From a virus, in the IMG/VR virus record IMGVR_UViG_3300025853_000029, positions 1-30,821 of that record: a DNA stretch of 30,821 nucleotides; one strand, written 5' to 3'. Positions within the stretch are counted from its first letter, which is position 1; every line of letters begins with the position of its first letter. The notes under the pieces were generated by a model. That model searched no databases. It worked only from the letters and a program-made list of their open reading frames with translations, and was not told the origin of the DNA. The translations under genes and the position numbers were made by a program. Of the stretch, positions 2,465-25,279 are shown piece by piece.

Positions 2465-4326
2465 TAGATACCGGGTTGTATGTCTTTAGGACTCTTTGGG
2501 TTGAGGAATCCTTTGTTCTTCATTTTATTTGGAACTACACTAACCTTGTTAGGATTCGTTGGTGGATCGAAGCCTGCTCTTCGTGCTTGGCTTCGACTTA
2601 CTGTCTTTGCATTAGGAGATCCAGGATCCGGTCTTACTCCGTTTCTGCTCATATAGGTTTTGCGTAGCCATTTGTGGTGGCATCGTGGTCCTCCTTTGTA
2701 GAGCCATATTGAATAGGTTGCAGCTCCTTCCGGTCCGAAGCCGGCATTGACTGCTCTATTATCCAGGGCCACAATATCTTCTTTTCTGTAGACCTTGTTT
2801 GCAGACATCATCTTGCGGCAGAACTCACGTTCCGGAGATTTGCTACCATCATATTGGTAACGGACCAAGAACAATACACCGTCTTTCTCTGCATCCTGCT
2901 CACTCTTTGCTCTTGGACGAGCTGTTCCAGTGCTCGCCAAGCCTATCATCTTATCTAGGGCTTCTTCTTGATCATAGTCGACTTCCCTCTCGTCTACTAA
3001 TTCCCATTCTTCTTCGTTGATCTCCTCTCCTAGATCGATAAGATCATCTGCTGATGCGTTAACTGAATCCTCCGGGACGCAGTTAGGCACCTTCTTGCCG
3101 TCCTTCATCTTTGTGCCTACCATCACATATCCAGGCTCGCAAGGATCGTCTGCATCTTTCAGCTCTGTTCTGCATCCACAGTCTGCTGATAGCTTTTCTC
3201 CAGTCTCTTTCTCTTGCTCTTCTTTTGTTACCGCAGCACTCCGGTCCGTAAACTCTAATGGCTGTAGTGTCTTGAAGTATAGATCTAGGTTTATTCCGTT
3301 GACTGCAAGTATTTGGTCCAGGGCATTGATAATCTGTTCTTGGAATGGACGTATCACTGTATTGTCAAAGAGCAGTGTTGCTGTCTCTATCTCTTCAGCG
3401 TTGTTTCCTAGTCCACTATTGTCCTTTATACCTAGAAGCATTGGAGAGGTAACTCTGTGAGCTACCATCAGCTTTTGCATTGATTCTCCTGATAGGAACT
3501 CGTATTGTGCGGCTGCATCCGACAGCTGCACCGGATCTATTGTTGCAGCAAGCTCTTTGCTCTCATTGAATGCGATGATTGCTCTTCCTGCATTACTTGA
3601 TCCTGACCATTTCTCTGTGATGCGCTGCTCTATCAACATACGCTCCTCCTCATCAGGTACTCCGTTGTTGAAGTTGATAAGCATACTTGGAGCCATTCCA
3701 TTCTTGATGTTATTCAAGTGATAGTTGGCTATCTCCTCTTCTAGTTCAGCGTATGGTATCCCACCTTGATAGTCTACCGGGCTGTAGTAGTAGTATCCTG
3801 CTTTGTATGGTCGGACTACTAGTATCTCTAGGCCTTCGTTGCTTGTACCGAATGCCGGTATGCGATCCGGCATTTTATTCGGAGTGAGCTTGGTCCAATC
3901 AGCACAGTAGTAGTATGCTTCTATCTCTCCTTCTTCGTTCATCTTCTCTGCTCGAAGTGTTTGGATAGGCATATGCTCCACTTGAGCTACCTGACGGTCC
4001 TTGGTGTATATAATCTGAAATGCACACTGGCCCATCATTTTTAGATCTGCTGTGACCTTTCGTAGACAGTCTGAATGTATCAAGGATCGCATTGAAGCGT
4101 ATTCTTGAGGCTTTCTGCTGCTGTCTGTAGCATCTAGTCCTTTTCCGTAGATAAGGTCGCTAATCGCATTTATGATAGCGTTGTTCGTTGGACTACCATT
4201 GTATCTATCTATCAGGTATTGATAGTAGTTGTTATCTGCTCCATACTCTACCCAGTCTTTATTCCGTTGTTCGGTTATTTCAGGCTTGGTATAGCTTGAT
4301 AGACTGATGCTGTGTACCTTCATCAT
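2464..4326 (-). CDS. Portal protein with C-terminal extension
   Basis: A 620-residue protein, expected to form the dodecameric DNA channel at one capsid vertex. Residues about 1-360 are the portal core: NNAIINAISDLIYGKGL, MMGQCAFQIIY, and SPMLLGIKDNSGLGNNAEE near 294-311. Residues about 383-419 form a Cys-rich linker (CGC then CEPGY to VPNCVPE). Residues about 483-560 carry a further domain with PEREFCRKMMSANKVYRKED and AATYSIWLYKGGPRCHHKW, often found fused to or following portals in this phage group; its job is unknown to me. The tail (GFLNPKSPKDIQPGI) is basic. There are two adjacent ATG codons; the first (4326) overlaps the previous stop as ATGA and is preferred. Confidence 0.88.
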   Translation of the reverse strand: MMKVHSISLSSYTKPEITEQRNKDWVEYGADNNYYQYLIDRYNGSPTNNAIINAISDLIYGKGLDATDSSRKPQEYASMRSLIHSDCLRKVTADLKMMGQCAFQIIYTKDRQVAQVEHMPIQTLRAEKMNEEGEIEAYYYCADWTKLTPNKMPDRIPAFGTSNEGLEILVVRPYKAGYYYYSPVDYQGGIPYAELEEEIANYHLNNIKNGMAPSMLINFNNGVPDEEERMLIEQRITEKWSGSSNAGRAIIAFNESKELAATIDPVQLSDAAAQYEFLSGESMQKLMVAHRVTSPMLLGIKDNSGLGNNAEEIETATLLFDNTVIRPFQEQIINALDQILAVNGINLDLYFKTLQPLEFTDRSAAVTKEEQEKETGEKLSADCGCRTELKDADDPCEPGYVMVGTKMKDGKKVPNCVPEDSVNASADDLIDLGEEINEEEWELVDEREVDYDQEEALDKMIGLASTGTARPRAKSEQDAEKDGVLFLVRYQYDGSKSPEREFCRKMMSANKVYRKEDIVALDNRAVNAGFGPEGAATYSIWLYKGGPRCHHKWLRKTYMSRNGVRPDPGSPNAKTVSRSQARRAGFDPPTNPNKVSVVPNKMKNKGFLNPKSPKDIQPGI

Positions 4327-18037: not shown

Positions 18038-19303
18038 TTATACCTCCTCTCCGTTTATTTTAATTATTATGTGTTCGTCTAGTTGCTGCATCCGGTCAAT
18101 GATTACTTGACAGTATTTCGGATCTAATTCTATTCCGTAGCACTTTCTTCCTAGTTGGTGGCAGGCTACCATTGTGCTTCCTGATCCGCAGAATGGATCT
18201 CCTACGATCTCTCCAGGTTTTGAGCTGTTCTTTATCAGGTCACCTACTAGTGGTATAGGTTTCATTGTTGGATGCACATCGTTCTTTGTAGGTTTATCGT
18301 GGTGTATGATCGTGCTAGGTTGCTCGTTTACGCTCTCGAGGAGCTTCACGAGCTCGTCTTTCTTCATCTTACTGAAGTCTACCTCTTGTTCTATAACTGT
18401 TGGGTTTGTTCTGTCGTTGGTGAAGTAGTGTCCTGCACCTTCTTTCCATCCGTATAAGATAGGCTCGTGTTTCCACTGGTAGTCTTGTCTTCCTAGTACG
18501 ATGCTGTTCTTTACCCATATCAGGCATTGCTTGAGTAGCAATCCGCTTCTTTGCCATCCTAACCTAAATGCGTTGCTTGCACTATCAGCGTGGAAGACAT
18601 ACCATCCTCCTCCTTTCTTTGTCTTGTGTGCATTAGCATCGTAGAAGCCTTGGAGGAATTGCATAAAGTCCTCGTCACCCATTTTATCGTTTTGAATCTT
18701 GAGGCCGTTGCTGCCTTCGTAGTCTACATTGTATGGTGGATCCGTGAGCACTAGGTCGTAGTATTCTTCTCCGGTTAGTCTTTCTATCACATCGTAGCTT
18801 GTGCTGTCATCGCATATAAGTCTGTGGAGCTCTTCTCCTGCTTTATGGAAGGTTATCAGGTCTCCTTGCTTTACATACAGCTTTGTTTGTTCTGAAGGCT
18901 CGTAGTTATCGTCTGTGGCTTCTTCTTCATCTAGTTGTGCCCAGTCTTCAGGGAAGTCCATTCCCCATTCAAGAAGATCCTGGGTATCGTATTCGTTTGC
19001 TAGCGCATCCCAATCCCATTCACCGAATGAGCTATTGTCTTTTATGATAAATTCCTTCTGCTGCTCTTCTGTGAGATTGCTTGCTTTGATGATTGGTACC
19101 TCCGATAGTCCTGCTTCGATGCAGGCCCGGAGGCGCATATTGCCTCCGAGGACTACCATATCGTCATTGACCACTATTGGCCGTAGGTCTAGCATCTCCG
19201 GAAACTCTTTGATGCTTTTTACTAGCTTGTCAAACTTATGGCCCTTGATTGTTCTAGGGTTGTTCGGGTTTGGCTGTACGTTGATGATCTTTACTCTCTC
19301 CAT
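18038..19303 (-). CDS. ParB-domain / DNA methyltransferase fusion
   Basis: A 421-residue protein. Residues about 1-90 are a ParB/Srx-type domain (INVQPNPNNPRTI, then VVLGGNMRLRACIEAG at 50-65). The rest is an amino-methyltransferase with DPPY at 188-191, HPTMKP at 344-349, and the SAM-binding motif DPFCGSGST (369-377). The order DPPY before FCGSGS indicates a beta-class N6-adenine or N4-cytosine enzyme. This fusion is common in phages and probably modifies phage DNA against host restriction. It begins in a TAATG overlap with the nuclease gene upstream. A double hairpin follows the stop. Confidence 0.9.
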   Translation of the reverse strand: MERVKIINVQPNPNNPRTIKGHKFDKLVKSIKEFPEMLDLRPIVVNDDMVVLGGNMRLRACIEAGLSEVPIIKASNLTEEQQKEFIIKDNSSFGEWDWDALANEYDTQDLLEWGMDFPEDWAQLDEEEATDDNYEPSEQTKLYVKQGDLITFHKAGEELHRLICDDSTSYDVIERLTGEEYYDLVLTDPPYNVDYEGSNGLKIQNDKMGDEDFMQFLQGFYDANAHKTKKGGGWYVFHADSASNAFRLGWQRSGLLLKQCLIWVKNSIVLGRQDYQWKHEPILYGWKEGAGHYFTNDRTNPTVIEQEVDFSKMKKDELVKLLESVNEQPSTIIHHDKPTKNDVHPTMKPIPLVGDLIKNSSKPGEIVGDPFCGSGSTMVACHQLGRKCYGIELDPKYCQVIIDRMQQLDEHIIIKINGEEV

Positions 19304-20650: not shown

Positions 20651-21074
20651 ACTCTTTGTATAGTTTCTTCAGATCCTGGATGTACCTATTCCATTCCTTT
20701 GGAGAGCAGCTGCACGGTATCCCAAACTTGTGGCTGAATACTCTTGCGTGAATCCGGGACAGTGGCTCCTGGTATTGTTCCTTAATTTCTCGACCATCAA
20801 ACGTCTGAAAGAATTGGTCCAGTGTATTGTATTCGCTTTCCTCTAGACACTCCACTGTTCTCTTATATGGAAACAAGTTGTTGAGGGTTTCCTTTCTTGC
20901 ATCGCATCCGCAATCGATTCCGGTAGCTTCGCTGAACTTTTCTACCACTGCTTTGATACCAGTGGCTGTTGTTATTTTCTCTACCGTATCTCCTAGGCCT
21001 TTGGATCTAGTCTTCTTGCTTCGTGTAGTCTTGGTAGTCTTTTTTGCACTTGATTTTGATTTCTTCCCTGACAT
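20637..21074 (-). CDS. Conserved phage protein with Cys cluster, 145 aa
   Basis: A Lys/Thr-rich basic N-terminus (about residues 1-25) is followed by GLGDTVEKITTATGIKAVVE and GIDCGCDARKETLNNLFPYK. The CGC pattern, with a later CSC (GIPCSCSPKEW), could bind metal. I recognise the family as a conserved unknown in Bacteroidota phages. Its first 68 bases overlap the end of the sigma-like gene, so the basic tail is encoded in doubly coding DNA. Nucleic-acid binding is possible but not shown. Confidence 0.65.
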   Translation of the reverse strand: MSGKKSKSSAKKTTKTTRSKKTRSKGLGDTVEKITTATGIKAVVEKFSEATGIDCGCDARKETLNNLFPYKRTVECLEESEYNTLDQFFQTFDGREIKEQYQEPLSRIHARVFSHKFGIPCSCSPKEWNRYIQDLKKLYKEYEGS

Positions 21075-21525
21075 TTTTCAGTGTGTTAAATATTGCATTG
21101 GAGCTTATCTTGCTCTCATCACTTAATTCTCTTATCGTCTTTCCTTTGCCGTAGTAGATCTCGAAGATCTTCTTATTATACCAATGCATATCTTCGATGC
21201 ATTGACTCATATTCTCTAGCAGGTCCTCTAGGGCCTCCTTGTCATATTCACCTTCTTCGTAAGCTAGGTTTGTAAGCGAGTTGATATCTACTTGTGGTAC
21301 TTGTTTCTTCTTTTGATCGTAGAAGAGATTCCGGAGAGTAACGTAAACGTAGAATGTGTTCACGTCATTGTCTGAATACTTCATCTTTTCTGCTGCTGCA
21401 AACTTGTACATCTTTATGTACATATCTTGGACCAGGTCTTCAGCATCTTCCTTTGATAGTCCAAAGCTGATTGCCATATTCATCCAATCTTGGTGGCGTT
21501 TTGCTAGCAGTTCAAGTTTACTCAT
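21007..21525 (-). CDS. Sigma-70-like transcription factor
   Basis: With the ATG at 21525 (MSKLELLAKRHQDW) the protein is 172 residues. This start has AGGAG nine bases upstream and is preferred over an in-frame TTG at 21543. Residues about 25-70 resemble sigma region 2 (LSKEDAEDLVQDMYIKMYKF), and about 117-157 resemble region 4 with a helix-turn-helix (FEIYYGKGKTIRELSDESKI). It may redirect host RNA polymerase to phage promoters. It is the first gene after a terminator and has a good promoter of its own. Confidence 0.7.
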   Translation of the reverse strand: MSKLELLAKRHQDWMNMAISFGLSKEDAEDLVQDMYIKMYKFAAAEKMKYSDNDVNTFYVYVTLRNLFYDQKKKQVPQVDINSLTNLAYEEGEYDKEALEDLLENMSQCIEDMHWYNKKIFEIYYGKGKTIRELSDESKISSNAIFNTLKNVREEIKIKCKKDYQDYTKQED

Positions 21526-22964: not shown

Positions 22965-23019
22965 TCTCTATACCGTATTGGTCACGGTCTCTTATCATTA
23001 ATTGTATTAGATTATTCAT
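22957..23019 (-). CDS. Possible mini-gene, 20 aa
   Basis: Twenty codons (MNNLIQLMIRDRDQYGIEND) exactly bridge the 100-aa gene (8-base overlap) and the 61-aa gene (8-base overlap). This double overlap is the pattern of real genes in this genome, but length alone gives little support. It might instead serve only to carry ribosomes across the gap. Confidence 0.35.
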   Translation of the reverse strand: MNNLIQLMIRDRDQYGIEND

Positions 23020-23314
23020 TCACATCTTTATTAAACGCAGCCTTCTCTGATACTTCCTGATCAGGAGTGCACTGTTGGTTATCTGATGTTGAATCTCCGG
23101 TGTCCATCCGAACCGGCTTGCTTGAATCGACAAGTTCACATTGTCGATCATTAGCATCTGTAGGTACTTCTGTATTTCCCTGATGTGTTTCCTCTTTCGT
23201 AGCATCCCTTTGTGTTTTAGTTATTAGATTTTGTTTTATTATTCTTTTTGCAATGCCGTCTCCGATCCGTTGCATTGCTCTACGTCTTCTTCTGTTAGGT
23301 TTATGATCTTTCAT
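23012..23314 (-). CDS. Hypothetical protein with Arg-rich start, 100 aa
   Basis: With the ATG at 23314 (MKDHKPNRRRRRAMQRIGDG), which overlaps the previous stop as TAATG, the protein has a strongly basic first third and an acidic, Gln/Ser/Thr-rich, probably disordered remainder (for example RMDTGDSTSDNQQCTPDQEV). A longer start at 23380 would run through the membrane gene in another frame and is rejected. Possibly a small nucleic-acid-binding protein. Confidence 0.6.
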   Translation of the reverse strand: MKDHKPNRRRRRAMQRIGDGIAKRIIKQNLITKTQRDATKEETHQGNTEVPTDANDRQCELVDSSKPVRMDTGDSTSDNQQCTPDQEVSEKAAFNKDVNE

Positions 23315-23436
23315 TACAAACTGATTGTTGGATGTACATAAACATAGACTAAAGCCAATACACTTAATGCAAATATGCAAATCGTAAACGCTAACAAGTA
23401 AAAAAGAATCTTTGTGGCTTTCTCTTGGTCAGTCAT
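23314..23436 (-). CDS. Small single-span membrane protein, 40 aa
   Basis: MTDQEKATKILFYLLAFTIC followed by IFALSVLALVYVYV: one long membrane helix (about residues 10-34) with a short polar N-terminus. It starts at the repeated CAAAGAGAGATGA sequence and ends in a TAATG overlap. It lies outside the lysis cassette, so a holin role is less likely; host-membrane modulation is possible. No family is recognised. Confidence 0.65.
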   Translation of the reverse strand: MTDQEKATKILFYLLAFTICIFALSVLALVYVYVHPTISL

Positions 23437-23453
23437 CTCTCTTTGGTTTTAGT
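23434..23453 (-). repeat. Start-associated repeat, copy 1
   Basis: On the minus strand this reads ACTAAAACCAAAGAGAGATG, with the start codon of the 40-aa membrane gene at its end. It is a diverged copy: TAAAACC replaces TTAACACC. Confidence 0.7.
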
Positions 23454-23473
23454 ATTGTTGAACTTTTTCTTAT

Positions 23474-23929
23474 CTACAAGGTGGCACTACGTCCGTCAAA
23501 TACAACCACCATACTGTCCTTTGTTCCGCTTTGTGTTTTTCCGTGTTTGTTAAGTGGAAGATAGAAATTACCATCCTTATCCAATTTTCCAAACTTGATC
23601 CTACCTCGTATAAATTCTATTTCGGTTGCGTTTGGTTTTATCCAATCGTGGAATAATTCCGTAGAAGTTGATACAGGAATTAAAAAAACACAAAGTTTAC
23701 CTTTCTTCATTTCTTCAACCCCTTTTTTCACAAACGCCTCTTTTAATTTTCTGCTGTATGGTGGATTTACAAAATTTGATCTTCCCCATTCAATACTTAA
23801 TCCATCAACTACTTCACCCTCACAATAAGGGCAAGGATCAAAATCAAAATTAAACCGATTATCTAATTCCTTGTAAAATTCACGAGGTGTAGCGTAGTTG
23901 TCATCGTTATTTATATGTATTTTTCTCAT
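23474..23929 (-). CDS. Phage DNA N6-adenine methyltransferase (Dam-type)
   Basis: A 151-residue protein of the small phage Dam family (PF05869-like). It shows the opening YATPREFYKELDNRFNFDFD, DPCPYC (31-36), the catalytic NPPYSR (55-60), LCVFLIPVSTSTELFHDWI (about 79-97) and a final strand SMVVVFDG. It should methylate adenines in phage DNA. It sits inside the AT-rich cassette run and carries the same start-associated repeat as its neighbours, so it may have arrived as one of these cassettes. The Cys pair in DPCPYC is common in the family. Confidence 0.88.
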   Translation of the reverse strand: MRKIHINNDDNYATPREFYKELDNRFNFDFDPCPYCEGEVVDGLSIEWGRSNFVNPPYSRKLKEAFVKKGVEEMKKGKLCVFLIPVSTSTELFHDWIKPNATEIEFIRGRIKFGKLDKDGNFYLPLNKHGKTQSGTKDSMVVVFDGRSATL

Positions 23930-23948
23930 CTCTCTTTGGTTTTAAGTT
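23927..23948 (-). repeat. Start-associated repeat, copy 2
   Basis: On the minus strand this contains TTAAAACCAAAGAGAGATG just before and including the start of the methyltransferase gene. It agrees with the other copies through CCAAAGAGAGATG. Confidence 0.75.
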
Positions 23949-24153
23949 AATATCCATAATTTACTTTAACTGCCATTGCTTGATACTTGGCATCTTCACC
24001 AAAACTATCTGCTAACCCTTCCATCACTTTAATAGCAATATCAGTATCAAATTGACATATAATAGAACAACACGCACCTAAATAATCCTCTTTGTCGTAT
24101 TGATTGTCTCTAATAGTTGATATTAGATAGTTTATTTTATCTTGGTCACTCAT
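23947..24153 (-). CDS. Hypothetical cassette protein, 68 aa
   Basis: MSDQDKINYLISTIRDNQYD, then EDYLGACCSIICQFDTDIAI and VMEGLADSFGEDAKYQAMAV. It is helical and acidic, with a Cys-Cys pair and a third Cys nearby. It starts at a full copy of the repeat and ends 17 bases before the methyltransferase start. No family is recognised. AT-rich like the rest of the cassette run. Confidence 0.65.
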   Translation of the reverse strand: MSDQDKINYLISTIRDNQYDKEDYLGACCSIICQFDTDIAIKVMEGLADSFGEDAKYQAMAVKVNYGY

Positions 24154-24172
24154 CTCTCTTTGGTGTTAAAGG
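24151..24172 (-). repeat. Start-associated repeat, copy 3 (full)
   Basis: This is a full 22-base copy, identical to 24410-24431 and 24559-24580. On the minus strand it runs from CCTTTAACACC into AAAGAGAGATG and ends in the start codon of the 68-aa gene. Confidence 0.85.
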
Positions 24173-24241
24173 TGTCAAGCTATCGCCTGACAATGTATTA
24201 TTAAAGGTCAGTTTATTCCCTTACTTGTATCATCTTTGGTG
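24154..24241. other. Non-coding remnant between cassettes
   Basis: This 88-base gap has no convincing gene. A short copy of the repeat (24231-24248) is followed by ATG and only five more codons before a stop. In the frame that copies 5 and 6 would use, a TAG interrupts just before copy 3. It looks like a cassette that has lost its gene by deletion. Confidence 0.5.
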
Positions 24242-24248
24242 TTAAAGG
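24231..24248 (-). repeat. Start-associated repeat, copy 4 (short)
   Basis: On the minus strand this reads CCTTTAACACCAAAGATG. It lacks the four bases GAGA of the full copies. The stop codon TAA of the 56-aa gene lies inside it. The ATG opens only a six-codon frame. Confidence 0.75.
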
Positions 24249-24412
24249 TTAAGTAGCATCCATACACCGAAATATAAGTGTACGATAAGCATTATAGATT
24301 CTACAAGTATGTGACCTATAAAGTCGTTCTTTGTTTTGCTACCTCTTTGCGGTAGTTTAATTCCGTTGCTTACTGCTTTTAGAATTAAGAAAATTGCAAT
24401 TACTTTAATCAT
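24242..24412 (-). CDS. Small membrane-associated protein, 56 aa
   Basis: MIKVIAIFLILKAVSNGIKL, a basic middle (PQRGSKTKND), then a second hydrophobic stretch (SIMLIVHLYFGVWMLLNL). This suggests two membrane helices with a short positive loop. It starts in an ATGA overlap at a full repeat copy, and its stop lies inside the next copy. No family is recognised. Very AT-rich (about 28% G+C in the line at 24361-24420). Confidence 0.65.
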   Translation of the reverse strand: MIKVIAIFLILKAVSNGIKLPQRGSKTKNDFIGHILVESIMLIVHLYFGVWMLLNL

Positions 24413-24561
24413 CTCTCTTTGGTGTTAAAGGTTTTTACTTTCTCTTGTGCGTATTCAGTAGCTATCATTTCAACTAACCACCTGTACTTTTCAAATTCAT
24501 CTATGTCACGAGGCTTTAAGTTTTCGTGCATTCTGTCTGTAATTAAATCTTTTAATGTCAT
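24409..24561 (-). CDS. Small cassette protein ending TFNTKER, 50 aa
   Basis: MTLKDLITDRMHENLKPRDI, then EFEKYRWLVEMIATEYAQEK and the tail TFNTKER. The tail and stop are encoded by the repeat copy that also starts the next gene (ATGA). The protein upstream has the identical tail. The body is helical and charged. No family is recognised. Confidence 0.7.
   Translation of the reverse strand: MTLKDLITDRMHENLKPRDIDEFEKYRWLVEMIATEYAQEKVKTFNTKER
24410..24431 (-). repeat. Start-associated repeat, copy 5 (full)
   Basis: This full copy encodes the TFNTKER end of the 50-aa protein in one frame and provides the leader and ATG of the 56-aa gene in another. Confidence 0.85.
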
Positions 24562-24707
24562 CTCTCTTTGGTGTTAAAGGTTTTGTCTTGTCTTCGTAGC
24601 CATCTTACATACATCTTGGCTGCCCAAGCTCTTCTTTGCTTCTTGAAAGGGTATCTCTTTCTTAACCTCGCATTTGCTATGCGTAGGAATTGGTCCATCT
24701 GTTTCAT
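24558..24707 (-). CDS. Small basic cassette protein ending TFNTKER, 49 aa
   Basis: MKQMDQFLRIANARLRKRYP, then FKKQRRAWAAKMYVRWLRRQ and the tail TFNTKER. About one third of residues are Lys or Arg, so DNA or RNA binding is plausible. I prefer the ATG at 24707, which overlaps the DnaA-like stop as ATGA, over the in-frame ATG at 24731. The tail is shared with the following 50-aa protein through the repeat. Confidence 0.7.
   Translation of the reverse strand: MKQMDQFLRIANARLRKRYPFKKQRRAWAAKMYVRWLRRQDKTFNTKER
24559..24580 (-). repeat. Start-associated repeat, copy 6 (full)
   Basis: This full copy encodes the TFNTKER tail of the 49-aa protein and the start of the 50-aa gene. It is the transcription-upstream border of the array. 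Confidence 0.85.
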
Positions 24708-25279
24708 AGTAGGTTCTTTAATCGTTTGCATTCTTCGTTTAGTCCCTGGGCACGTAGTAGTGCCCTCTGATATTCTTTAGTTAATATACTGTTTTCACTT
24801 TTTAATTGCAAGATTTCTTTCTTGTGACGTTTTTTTAGTGATTCGATTCGTTCTTCATACATTGAGAAGATTGTTTCTTCTATTGCAGCTCCGTTATTAG
24901 GGAGCTGCTTATTTCTTACCACCTCGAAGATCTGATCTTGATATTGGTCCAGGGTTTCTTCTACTTCCGCAGATATCATATTGTAGATGTTCCGGTATCT
25001 CTCATCGCACATCATATTGCTCTCGTGGATCTTTCTTGCGTGAATCACTGTAGCGTGGTCCTTGTTCAGCACTCTACCTATTTCTTTTAGAGACAGCACC
25101 GTCTGTTCTGATACTACACACATAAATGCGTGCTTCCATCGGATGTTTTCTCTGATTCTATTATCTCTTATCTGATTGGCTTGCTGTATCTCTTTCCATA
25201 GTGTTTTTATAAACATCTTTTGGTCGATTGTTATTTGCAATCTAGTTAGAGCTTTCTGTTGTGTATGTGTTGTAACCAT
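24704..25279 (-). CDS. DnaA domain-IV-like DNA-binding protein with coiled coil
   Basis: A 191-residue protein. Residues about 61-85 (VLSLKEIGRVLNKDHATVIH, then ARKIHE) closely resemble the DnaA signature helix-turn-helix that reads DnaA boxes (S..EIG..FGRDH.TV..A). There is no AAA+ ATPase part. Residues about 130-190 form a charged coiled coil (IESLKKRHKKEILQLKSENS). I infer an origin-binding or replication-initiation role together with the helicase two genes upstream. It overlaps the HNH gene by 34 bases. Confidence 0.75.
   Translation of the reverse strand: MVTTHTQQKALTRLQITIDQKMFIKTLWKEIQQANQIRDNRIRENIRWKHAFMCVVSEQTVLSLKEIGRVLNKDHATVIHARKIHESNMMCDERYRNIYNMISAEVEETLDQYQDQIFEVVRNKQLPNNGAAIEETIFSMYEERIESLKKRHKKEILQLKSENSILTKEYQRALLRAQGLNEECKRLKNLL

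Follow-up and report, generated by a model that had tools for sequence, protein, structure and literature searches.

Small ORFans are abundant in marine phages, and it is an open question how such genes are gained and remain expressible. It is considered here for a locus of a 30.8-kb IMG/VR virus record (hereafter the window, i.e. the whole stretch of DNA analyzed), in which one short sequence of 22-26 bases recurs at the starts of successive small genes; the repeat and the array that it forms are read on the minus strand. A preliminary description of the locus had proposed that this repeat combines ribosome loading with a homology seam for the swapping of accessory genes, most likely anti-host genes. 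On the evidence presented below, it is quite probable that the repeat is a two-in-one junction, in which a translational stop-start signal is united with a homology seam between swappable small genes.

The copies were confined to a 1.15-kb AT-rich stretch of the window (23433-24583): five ATG-anchored copies and one shortened copy (Table 1). When ATG-anchored sites with ≤4 mismatches in 18 nt were counted, five were observed, whereas 100 dinucleotide shuffles gave 0.01 on average and never more than 1. Three copies (ATG at 24561, 24412, and 24153), described earlier as identical over 22 bases, were found to be identical over 23 (CCTTTAACACCAAAGAGAGATGA); these three junctions are built of AAAC/ACAC, CTTTAACACCAAAGAGAG, and ATGA, and the two shorter copies (ATG at 23929 and 23436) had TAAAACCAAAGAGAGATGA in common. 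The translation of the repeat as the tail TFNTKER, with the stop overlapping the next ATG in ATGA, was found as claimed in the 57-aa and 50-aa genes, and the stop said to lie inside the repeat in a third gene is the TAA of the 56-aa gene within the shortened copy. The AT-richness was also borne out: GC content was 35-36% at 23-25 kb versus 38-46% elsewhere in the window. Among the genes placed behind the repeat, the Dam-type methyltransferase was confirmed by Pfam (PF05869), and the "membrane protein" is a putative one, recognised by its hydrophobicity. The copy said to be empty does open a frame of six codons but is not empty, since it begins a conserved, mobile non-coding element.

Table 1. 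Features of the array and its borders in the window, in the order in which they are read on the minus strand.
Feature	Position	Strand	Remarks
Backbone gene with DnaA C-terminal helix-turn-helix domain, upstream of array	24704..25279	-	Pfam PF08299, E 2.5e-08
Backbone gene, 57 aa (...QFLRIANARLRKRYPFKKQRRAW...), left array border	24558..24731	-	Tail from repeat copy 1; conserved beside array in relatives
Junction repeat copy 1, AAACCTTTAACACCAAAGAGAGATGA	24558..24583	-	Doubles as end of upstream 57-aa gene (TFNTKER*)
Cassette ORF, 50 aa	24409..24561	-	Tail from repeat copy 2; present too in L029/L129
Junction repeat copy 2, same sequence as copy 1	24409..24434	-	Ends 50-aa gene (TFNTKER*)
Cassette ORF, 56 aa, hydrophobic	24242..24412	-	Also in L322, L320, L326, L329 (85-98% nt identity), with different surroundings
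Shortened junction copy, CCTTTAACACCAAAGATG	24231..24248	-	Opens six-codon frame MIQVRE*; TAA stop of 56-aa gene inside
Conserved non-coding part, hairpin TGTCAGG-cgatag-CTTGACA (24173-24192)	24173..24230	-	Fold z = -3.0
Junction repeat copy 3	24150..24175	-	
Cassette ORF, 68 aa	23947..24153	-	L129 version 98.8% identical, with another upstream neighbour
Junction repeat copy 4, variant TTAAAACCAAAGAGAGATGA	23926..23951	-	
Cassette ORF, Dam-type DNA N6-adenine methyltransferase, 151 aa	23474..23929	-	Pfam PF05869, E 5e-18; phrog_111, E 7e-33
Junction repeat copy 5, variant CTAAAACCAAAGAGAGATGA	23433..23458	-	
Cassette ORF, 40 aa, hydrophobic (MTDQEKATKILFYLLAF...)	23314..23436	-	Family of 16 cassette proteins
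Backbone gene (MKDHKPNRRRRRAM...), right array border	23012..23314	-	Conserved after array in relatives

Further genes of the window encode a terminase, an exonuclease VIII-like nuclease, RusA, a helicase, an endolysin, and a sigma-like factor. The last (21007-21525; phrog_1740, E 3.5e-09) is matched by similar genes in the corresponding position of relatives, and is a possible phage transcription switch. The gene at 18038-19303 encodes a ParB N-terminal-like domain fused to an N6/N4 DNA methyltransferase. The DnaA C-terminal DNA-binding domain upstream of the array (24704-25279) stands alone, followed by a long charged C-terminal part, and this gene was kept at the same position in the close relatives read.

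The exact 21-mer of the repeat was present in at least 120 IMG/VR stretches, on contigs of up to 297 kb; the number of matches expected by chance is, by our estimate, well below one. In 0.98 Mb of such loci, 334 sites were found at ≤5 mismatches versus 0 for the reversed motif, with the ATG kept in 93% of the sites and followed by A in 94% at ≤4 mismatches. All of the 40 full records tested contained the repeat (reversed control, 0), with the copies clustered in short stretches, in one orientation, at ATGs, and within the replication/accessory region. The carriers, about 30 to 297 kb in size, included small and jumbo phages alike, and a terminase was recognised in 17 of 50 carriers; these proteins formed at least five groups with <30% identity. 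The closest isolate relatives were Flavobacterium phages by terminase and Maribacter/Cellulophaga phages by helicase. Since the start context also fits Flavobacterium johnsoniae (see below), the host of the carriers is likely a member of the Bacteroidota, probably of the Flavobacteriia, and many of these unrelated phages probably infect marine Bacteroidota. All carrier sequences are metagenome assemblies. Neither the repeat nor the commonest cassette family (MKTPMQELI) was found among the INPHARED isolate phages, and a degenerate search of 84,980 prokaryote genomes yielded 3 contig matches; the bacterial-genome match L126 is probably a misbinned phage contig, because it encodes a phage cassette family. 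Apart from variants of this repeat, no comparable repeat family was found in the array loci. The 14-mer of the repeat was absent from the literature searched, which did not include subscription papers and bioRxiv, and no description was found there. The cassette system is real, widespread, and apparently undescribed.

We next consider what the repeat does at the level of translation. A generic start context, which the preliminary description had named as an outcome that would refute it, was rejected: ordinary starts in the same loci carried ≤0.28 bit per position and were rich in A only weakly, between -11 and -13. A Shine-Dalgarno (SD) element was also rejected, because GAGAG is too near the start codon and ribosomes of the Bacteroidota make no use of SD (PMC9976891). 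In the repeat, A was nearly fixed at -14, -13, -11, -8, -7, -4, and -2. In Flavobacterium johnsoniae, which is without SD sequences, adenines at -14 to -11 and at -6 are positive determinants (PMC6847099); these are matched by the adenines of the repeat at -14, -13, and -11 and by an A at -6, whereas position -3, where A is favored in F. johnsoniae, is G. The strictness at -10, -5, and elsewhere exceeds that of a start context, and could reflect another recognised function.

Stop codons were also part of the junction, since the repeat supplies one for two of the three reading frames. Of the ORFs that stay open until the next repeat, TGA was used by 151, TAA by 67, and the stopless frame by 12. 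In the 321 repeat-to-repeat cassettes, 138 ORFs ended on the TGA of ATGA, overlapping the next ATG by 4 nt, 60 ended on the TAA of CTTTAA, and 12 ran past; a stop inside the repeat was counted for 79/321 preceding ORFs. The mismatch profile was alike in coding, half-coding, and wholly non-coding copies, and because the changes tolerated did not depend on coding, the constraint on the repeat is not one of protein sequence. Ribosome loading was supported indirectly by these results (ATG anchoring, the bias in stop frames, and the same constraint in coding and non-coding copies), and each copy probably provides for ribosome loading and an efficient start of translation. Ribosomal protein bS21 is encoded by four large array-bearing phages (L358-L361; 72-297 kb). 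As a translation factor shared by the carriers, phage-encoded bS21 was rejected: it occurred in 4/50 of them, all ≥72 kb, and not in the window.

Another reading of the repeat is a promoter or operator (recognised, for example, by a regulator or sigma factor of the phage), from which each cassette would have its own leaderless transcript; the conserved bases span about -22 to the ATG, and the window phage has the sigma-factor-like protein (phrog_1740). However, the overlap with the stop of the preceding gene suggests an operon, and several of the constrained positions are translation determinants, so that we consider this reading very improbable.

The stop-start junction was accompanied by a fixed backbone with variable content. 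In relatives found by their helicase, the array sits between a "RIANARL" gene and a "KPNRR" gene. In the 11 contigs containing both flanks, the repeats in between numbered 0, 0, 1, 1, 1, 1, 1, 1, 2, 3, and 5, over 48 to 1378 bp; in 11 further relatives, the second flank was absent from the stretch read, mostly because the contig ends first. In the array-less L150 (about 3541-3640), the two array-flanking genes are fused in frame (...RLRKRQREMKDHKPN...), apparently as the scar of a deletion, at whose end a remnant of the repeat is left. In another lineage, one of large phages, L074 (57 kb) and L023 (212 kb) have two cassettes in common, 100% and 97% identical, in swapped order between the same flanks. 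The comparison with relatives called for in the preliminary description thus gave the outcome foreseen there: the position of the array is kept, while its gene content varies. In a second lineage with an unrelated terminase (L045, L001, and L057), the array adjoins a homologue (RKHxREVxKYLxMLM) of the window gene at 23205-23020.

Since short-read assemblers may have linked unrelated contigs at the 21-base repeat, we considered whether the arrays are artefacts of assembly. The contigs are metagenomic throughout and often end in arrays: a copy lay within 600 bp of the end in 22 of 57 long contigs, versus 2.6 expected. This enrichment is, on the other hand, expected if arrays vary among co-occurring phages, and real variants would leave contigs that end inside arrays. 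Furthermore, 34 pairs of non-identical junction copies recurred in different contigs with both flanks matching, and the stop frames were biased, which makes chimaeras unlikely; the arrays also occupied one fixed backbone position. We regard an artefact as extremely unlikely.

Exchange at the seam was assessed with 582 distinct sites, using pairs (non-independent of each other) that matched over 60 bp downstream, or that matched upstream. Pairs with the same downstream sequence had unrelated upstream sequences in 360 of 403 cases (89%) at repeat sites, versus 466 of 3050 (15%) at ordinary ORF starts; pairs with the same upstream sequence differed downstream in 371 of 406 cases, versus 118 of 2046 at ordinary ORF starts of the same loci. 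The difference from ordinary starts is large in both directions. The 40-aa ORF type of the window is an example: seven members were preceded by seven different upstream types. The clearest case is contig 3300022187_003235 (L029/L129): in the 1,068 bp before the first break, its identity with the window was 99.8%, and all three array differences between the window and L129 fell within repeat copies. Two cassette blocks of L129 are missing from the window, with both breaks in the repeat (the shortened copy and copy 3) and an overlap of 18 bp at each; the third break is located exactly at the end of copy 4, where the window has the Dam methyltransferase. Cassettes with 90-100% identity were common to phages whose terminases are <30% identical, in rearranged order, and L074 and the 297-kb phage L086 had 300 identical bases in common, covering a whole cassette and its repeats. 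At the level of sequence, these comparisons demonstrated the exchange of cassettes at the repeat, and the homology seam proposed earlier gained strong support from the breakpoints in the repeat and from the mismatch of flanks.

The position of the switch was then estimated from the agreement above random at variable repeat positions, among sites sharing the upstream or the downstream cassette. With the upstream flank, linkage was ~0.9 up to -16, and then dropped to 0.46 at position -12 and to 0.09 at position -9. With the downstream flank, it was >0.8 from +3, and decreased to 0.37 at -1, 0.28 at -9, 0.19 at -12, and ~0 by -22. Since both linkages decay across the repeat, ancestry switches inside it, gradually, between about -16 and +3. 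Such crossovers at varying points in the repeat would be produced by homologous recombination along ~20 bp, but not by a recombinase cutting at a single position.

These results bear on two other explanations. If the repeat were a selected translation-start signal only, genes being turned over by illegitimate recombination and the signal kept or regained, it would always be found at an ATG, as observed, and its A-rich pattern does suit initiation in Bacteroidota. However, near-identical strains break within the repeat with 18-bp overlaps, upstream variants are linked over the 5' half and downstream variants more over the 3' end, and the variants of the copies are not simply carried along with the downstream gene; this explanation is quite improbable. 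The other is a dedicated site-specific recombinase, either integron-like or an unrecognised enzyme of phage or host, that moves cassettes at the repeat. The head-to-tail single ORFs in one orientation, with near-identical repeats, resemble integron arrays, and the repeat is conserved beyond the needs of a start site. However, tyrosine recombinase (PF00589; positive in 14/14 control genomes) and serine recombinase were each found in 0 of 50 array-bearing records, many of which are fragments, the repeat is neither symmetrical nor stably folded, and ancestry switches along a gradient over the repeat without a step at a fixed point. Such a recombinase therefore appears unlikely. A RecT-family protein was detected neither in the window nor above the cut-off in the 50 carriers, and RecA was above the cut-off in 4/50 carriers only, all large phages. 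RecT, tyrosine, and serine recombinases were thus rejected as a shared agent, and the agent of recombination may therefore be the host's.

The junction anatomy, the variable content between fixed backbone genes, the breakpoints in the repeat, and the sharing across lineages, all documented above, are the basis of the mechanism that we propose for the two-in-one junction. At the mRNA level, the repeat would end the preceding ORF, via TGA in ATGA or TAA in CTTTAA, and would start the next one in an A-rich, SD-free context suited to Bacteroidota ribosomes; any cassette behind any other would then be translated within one operon. At the DNA level, its 20-26 bp would be the sole homology among otherwise unrelated cassettes, at which homologous recombination (by host RecA or a phage annealing system) could delete, insert, reorder, and exchange cassettes, also between phages sharing a host, unrelated lineages included. 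Homologous recombination is, we infer from the sequences, the probable agent of this exchange.

The cargo consisted of 321 distinct cassettes (median, 221 bp and 67 aa), arranged head-to-tail as single ORFs with one repeat each and in a single orientation; the ORF covered ≥80% of the cassette in 76% of them. The mismatches in cassette ORFs were distributed over the codon positions as 884/555/2004, and because of this bias, the ORFs are considered to be real proteins under protein-level selection. A set of 482 distinct cassette proteins was divided into 214 families, 153 of which were singletons, and most of 70 representative proteins had no match. Recognisable cargo comprised Dam and FkbM methyltransferases, GroES, YqaJ/exonuclease, HNH, metallophosphatase, HTH, and Smr; since most proteins are unmatched and the recognisable cargo is mixed, the case for the anti-host role suggested earlier is weak.

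The largest family, MKTPMQELI (...ESMLEKEKE...TFNTKER), is itself mosaic: 21 different N-halves were paired with 29 C-halves in 35 combinations, with examples in L081 (8187-8629), L313, L262, L110, L325, and others. The halves join at the sequence coding for ESMLEKEKE (GAATCAATGCTTGAGAAAGAGAAAGAG), which is a second, intragenic seam. The predicted model consisted of three helices (mean pLDDT, 84), with ESMLEKEKE in the middle of a long helix and the repeat-encoded TFNTKER as the low-confidence end; structure comparison and a PDB search with this model gave no informative match. On balance, we favor a broader reading as well, in which unrelated lineages (about 30 to 297 kb), probably Flavobacteriia phages, draw on one open cassette pool through an integrase-free stop-start junction and the second seam at ESMLEKEKE.

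Non-coding parts were also mobile. The element beginning at the shortened copy, or its 61-86-base 3' part, was found with 95-100% identity in L006, L028, L029, L038, L082, and L158, and the hairpin element was located before several other genes. An RNA gene was rejected, as an Rfam search of the array gave no match. A composite leader was observed in L029, L036, L044, L050, L053, L073, L082, L113, and L231: the repeat, an ORF of 8-9 codons (MSRCTPHR(K)), and a hairpin (GCAAAT-aa-ATTTGC or GATAAAT-aa-ATTTATC) 2 nt before the next ATG. Paired changes on both sides of this hairpin keep the pairing, and different genes follow.

If the repeat functions as proposed, one short sequence solves both parts of the question raised at the beginning, because a repeat-bearing cassette can join any array and be terminated and restarted correctly there. 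The repeat is also a sequence handle by which hundreds of accessory phage genes can be mined, accounts for contig breaks at arrays, and allows gene flow among unrelated phages with a common host to be measured directly.

Among known systems, integrons consist of head-to-tail cassettes, mostly single small ORFs without known function from an open-ended pool, with one attC per cassette and an integrase. The arrays described here are likewise head-to-tail, with mostly single small ORFs of this sort from an open-ended pool and one repeat per cassette. They differ in that no IntI-type tyrosine recombinase was detected in the carriers (PF00589, 0/50; the records may be fragments), and in that the repeat lacks the folded attC hairpin, is a start/stop signal, and has exchange points spread over it.

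The start-associated sequences (SAS) of Cluster K mycobacteriophages are 13 bp long (GGGATAGGAGCCC), with SD pairing, and are located 3-7 bp before the start; the upstream gene is mostly >50 bp away, SAS are essentially limited to one cluster, and 17-bp imperfect inverted repeats (ESAS) are found just upstream of about half of them (Pope et al. 2011, PMC3203893). Both SAS and the present repeat are short, asymmetric, in one orientation, and at the starts of non-structural genes before different families, and in both, the preceding stop codon can lie within the element. On the other hand, SAS has an SD-like AGGAG, whereas CTTTAACACCAAAGAGAG directly abuts ATGA without SD; the repeat overlaps the previous gene (by 4 nt in 138/321) instead of following a gap of mostly >50 bp; and it occurs in at least five lineages and at exchange points, unlike SAS in one cluster. 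In contrast to ESAS, a perfect hairpin of ≥6 bp was present in the upstream 40 bp at just 31/582 repeat sites. The parallel with SAS drawn in the preliminary description therefore holds as an analogy, but not as an identity of the elements, which differ in motif, spacing, and inverted repeats.

As summarized in PMC4503421 (citing Arbiol et al. 2010; Comeau et al. 2014), PeSL of T4-type phages is a transcriptional unit, with an early promoter and a terminator stem-loop. On that account, both are repeated regulatory elements that double as homology for the shuffling of small genes between phages. By the same summary, PeSL is found within T4-like phages, whereas the present seam is translational and occurs in small and jumbo phages, and the repeat has no terminator stem-loop (fold of the 26-nt repeat, -0.5 kcal/mol; z -0.36). 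The cassette system thus works like PeSL shuffling and looks like SAS, and by definition is neither.
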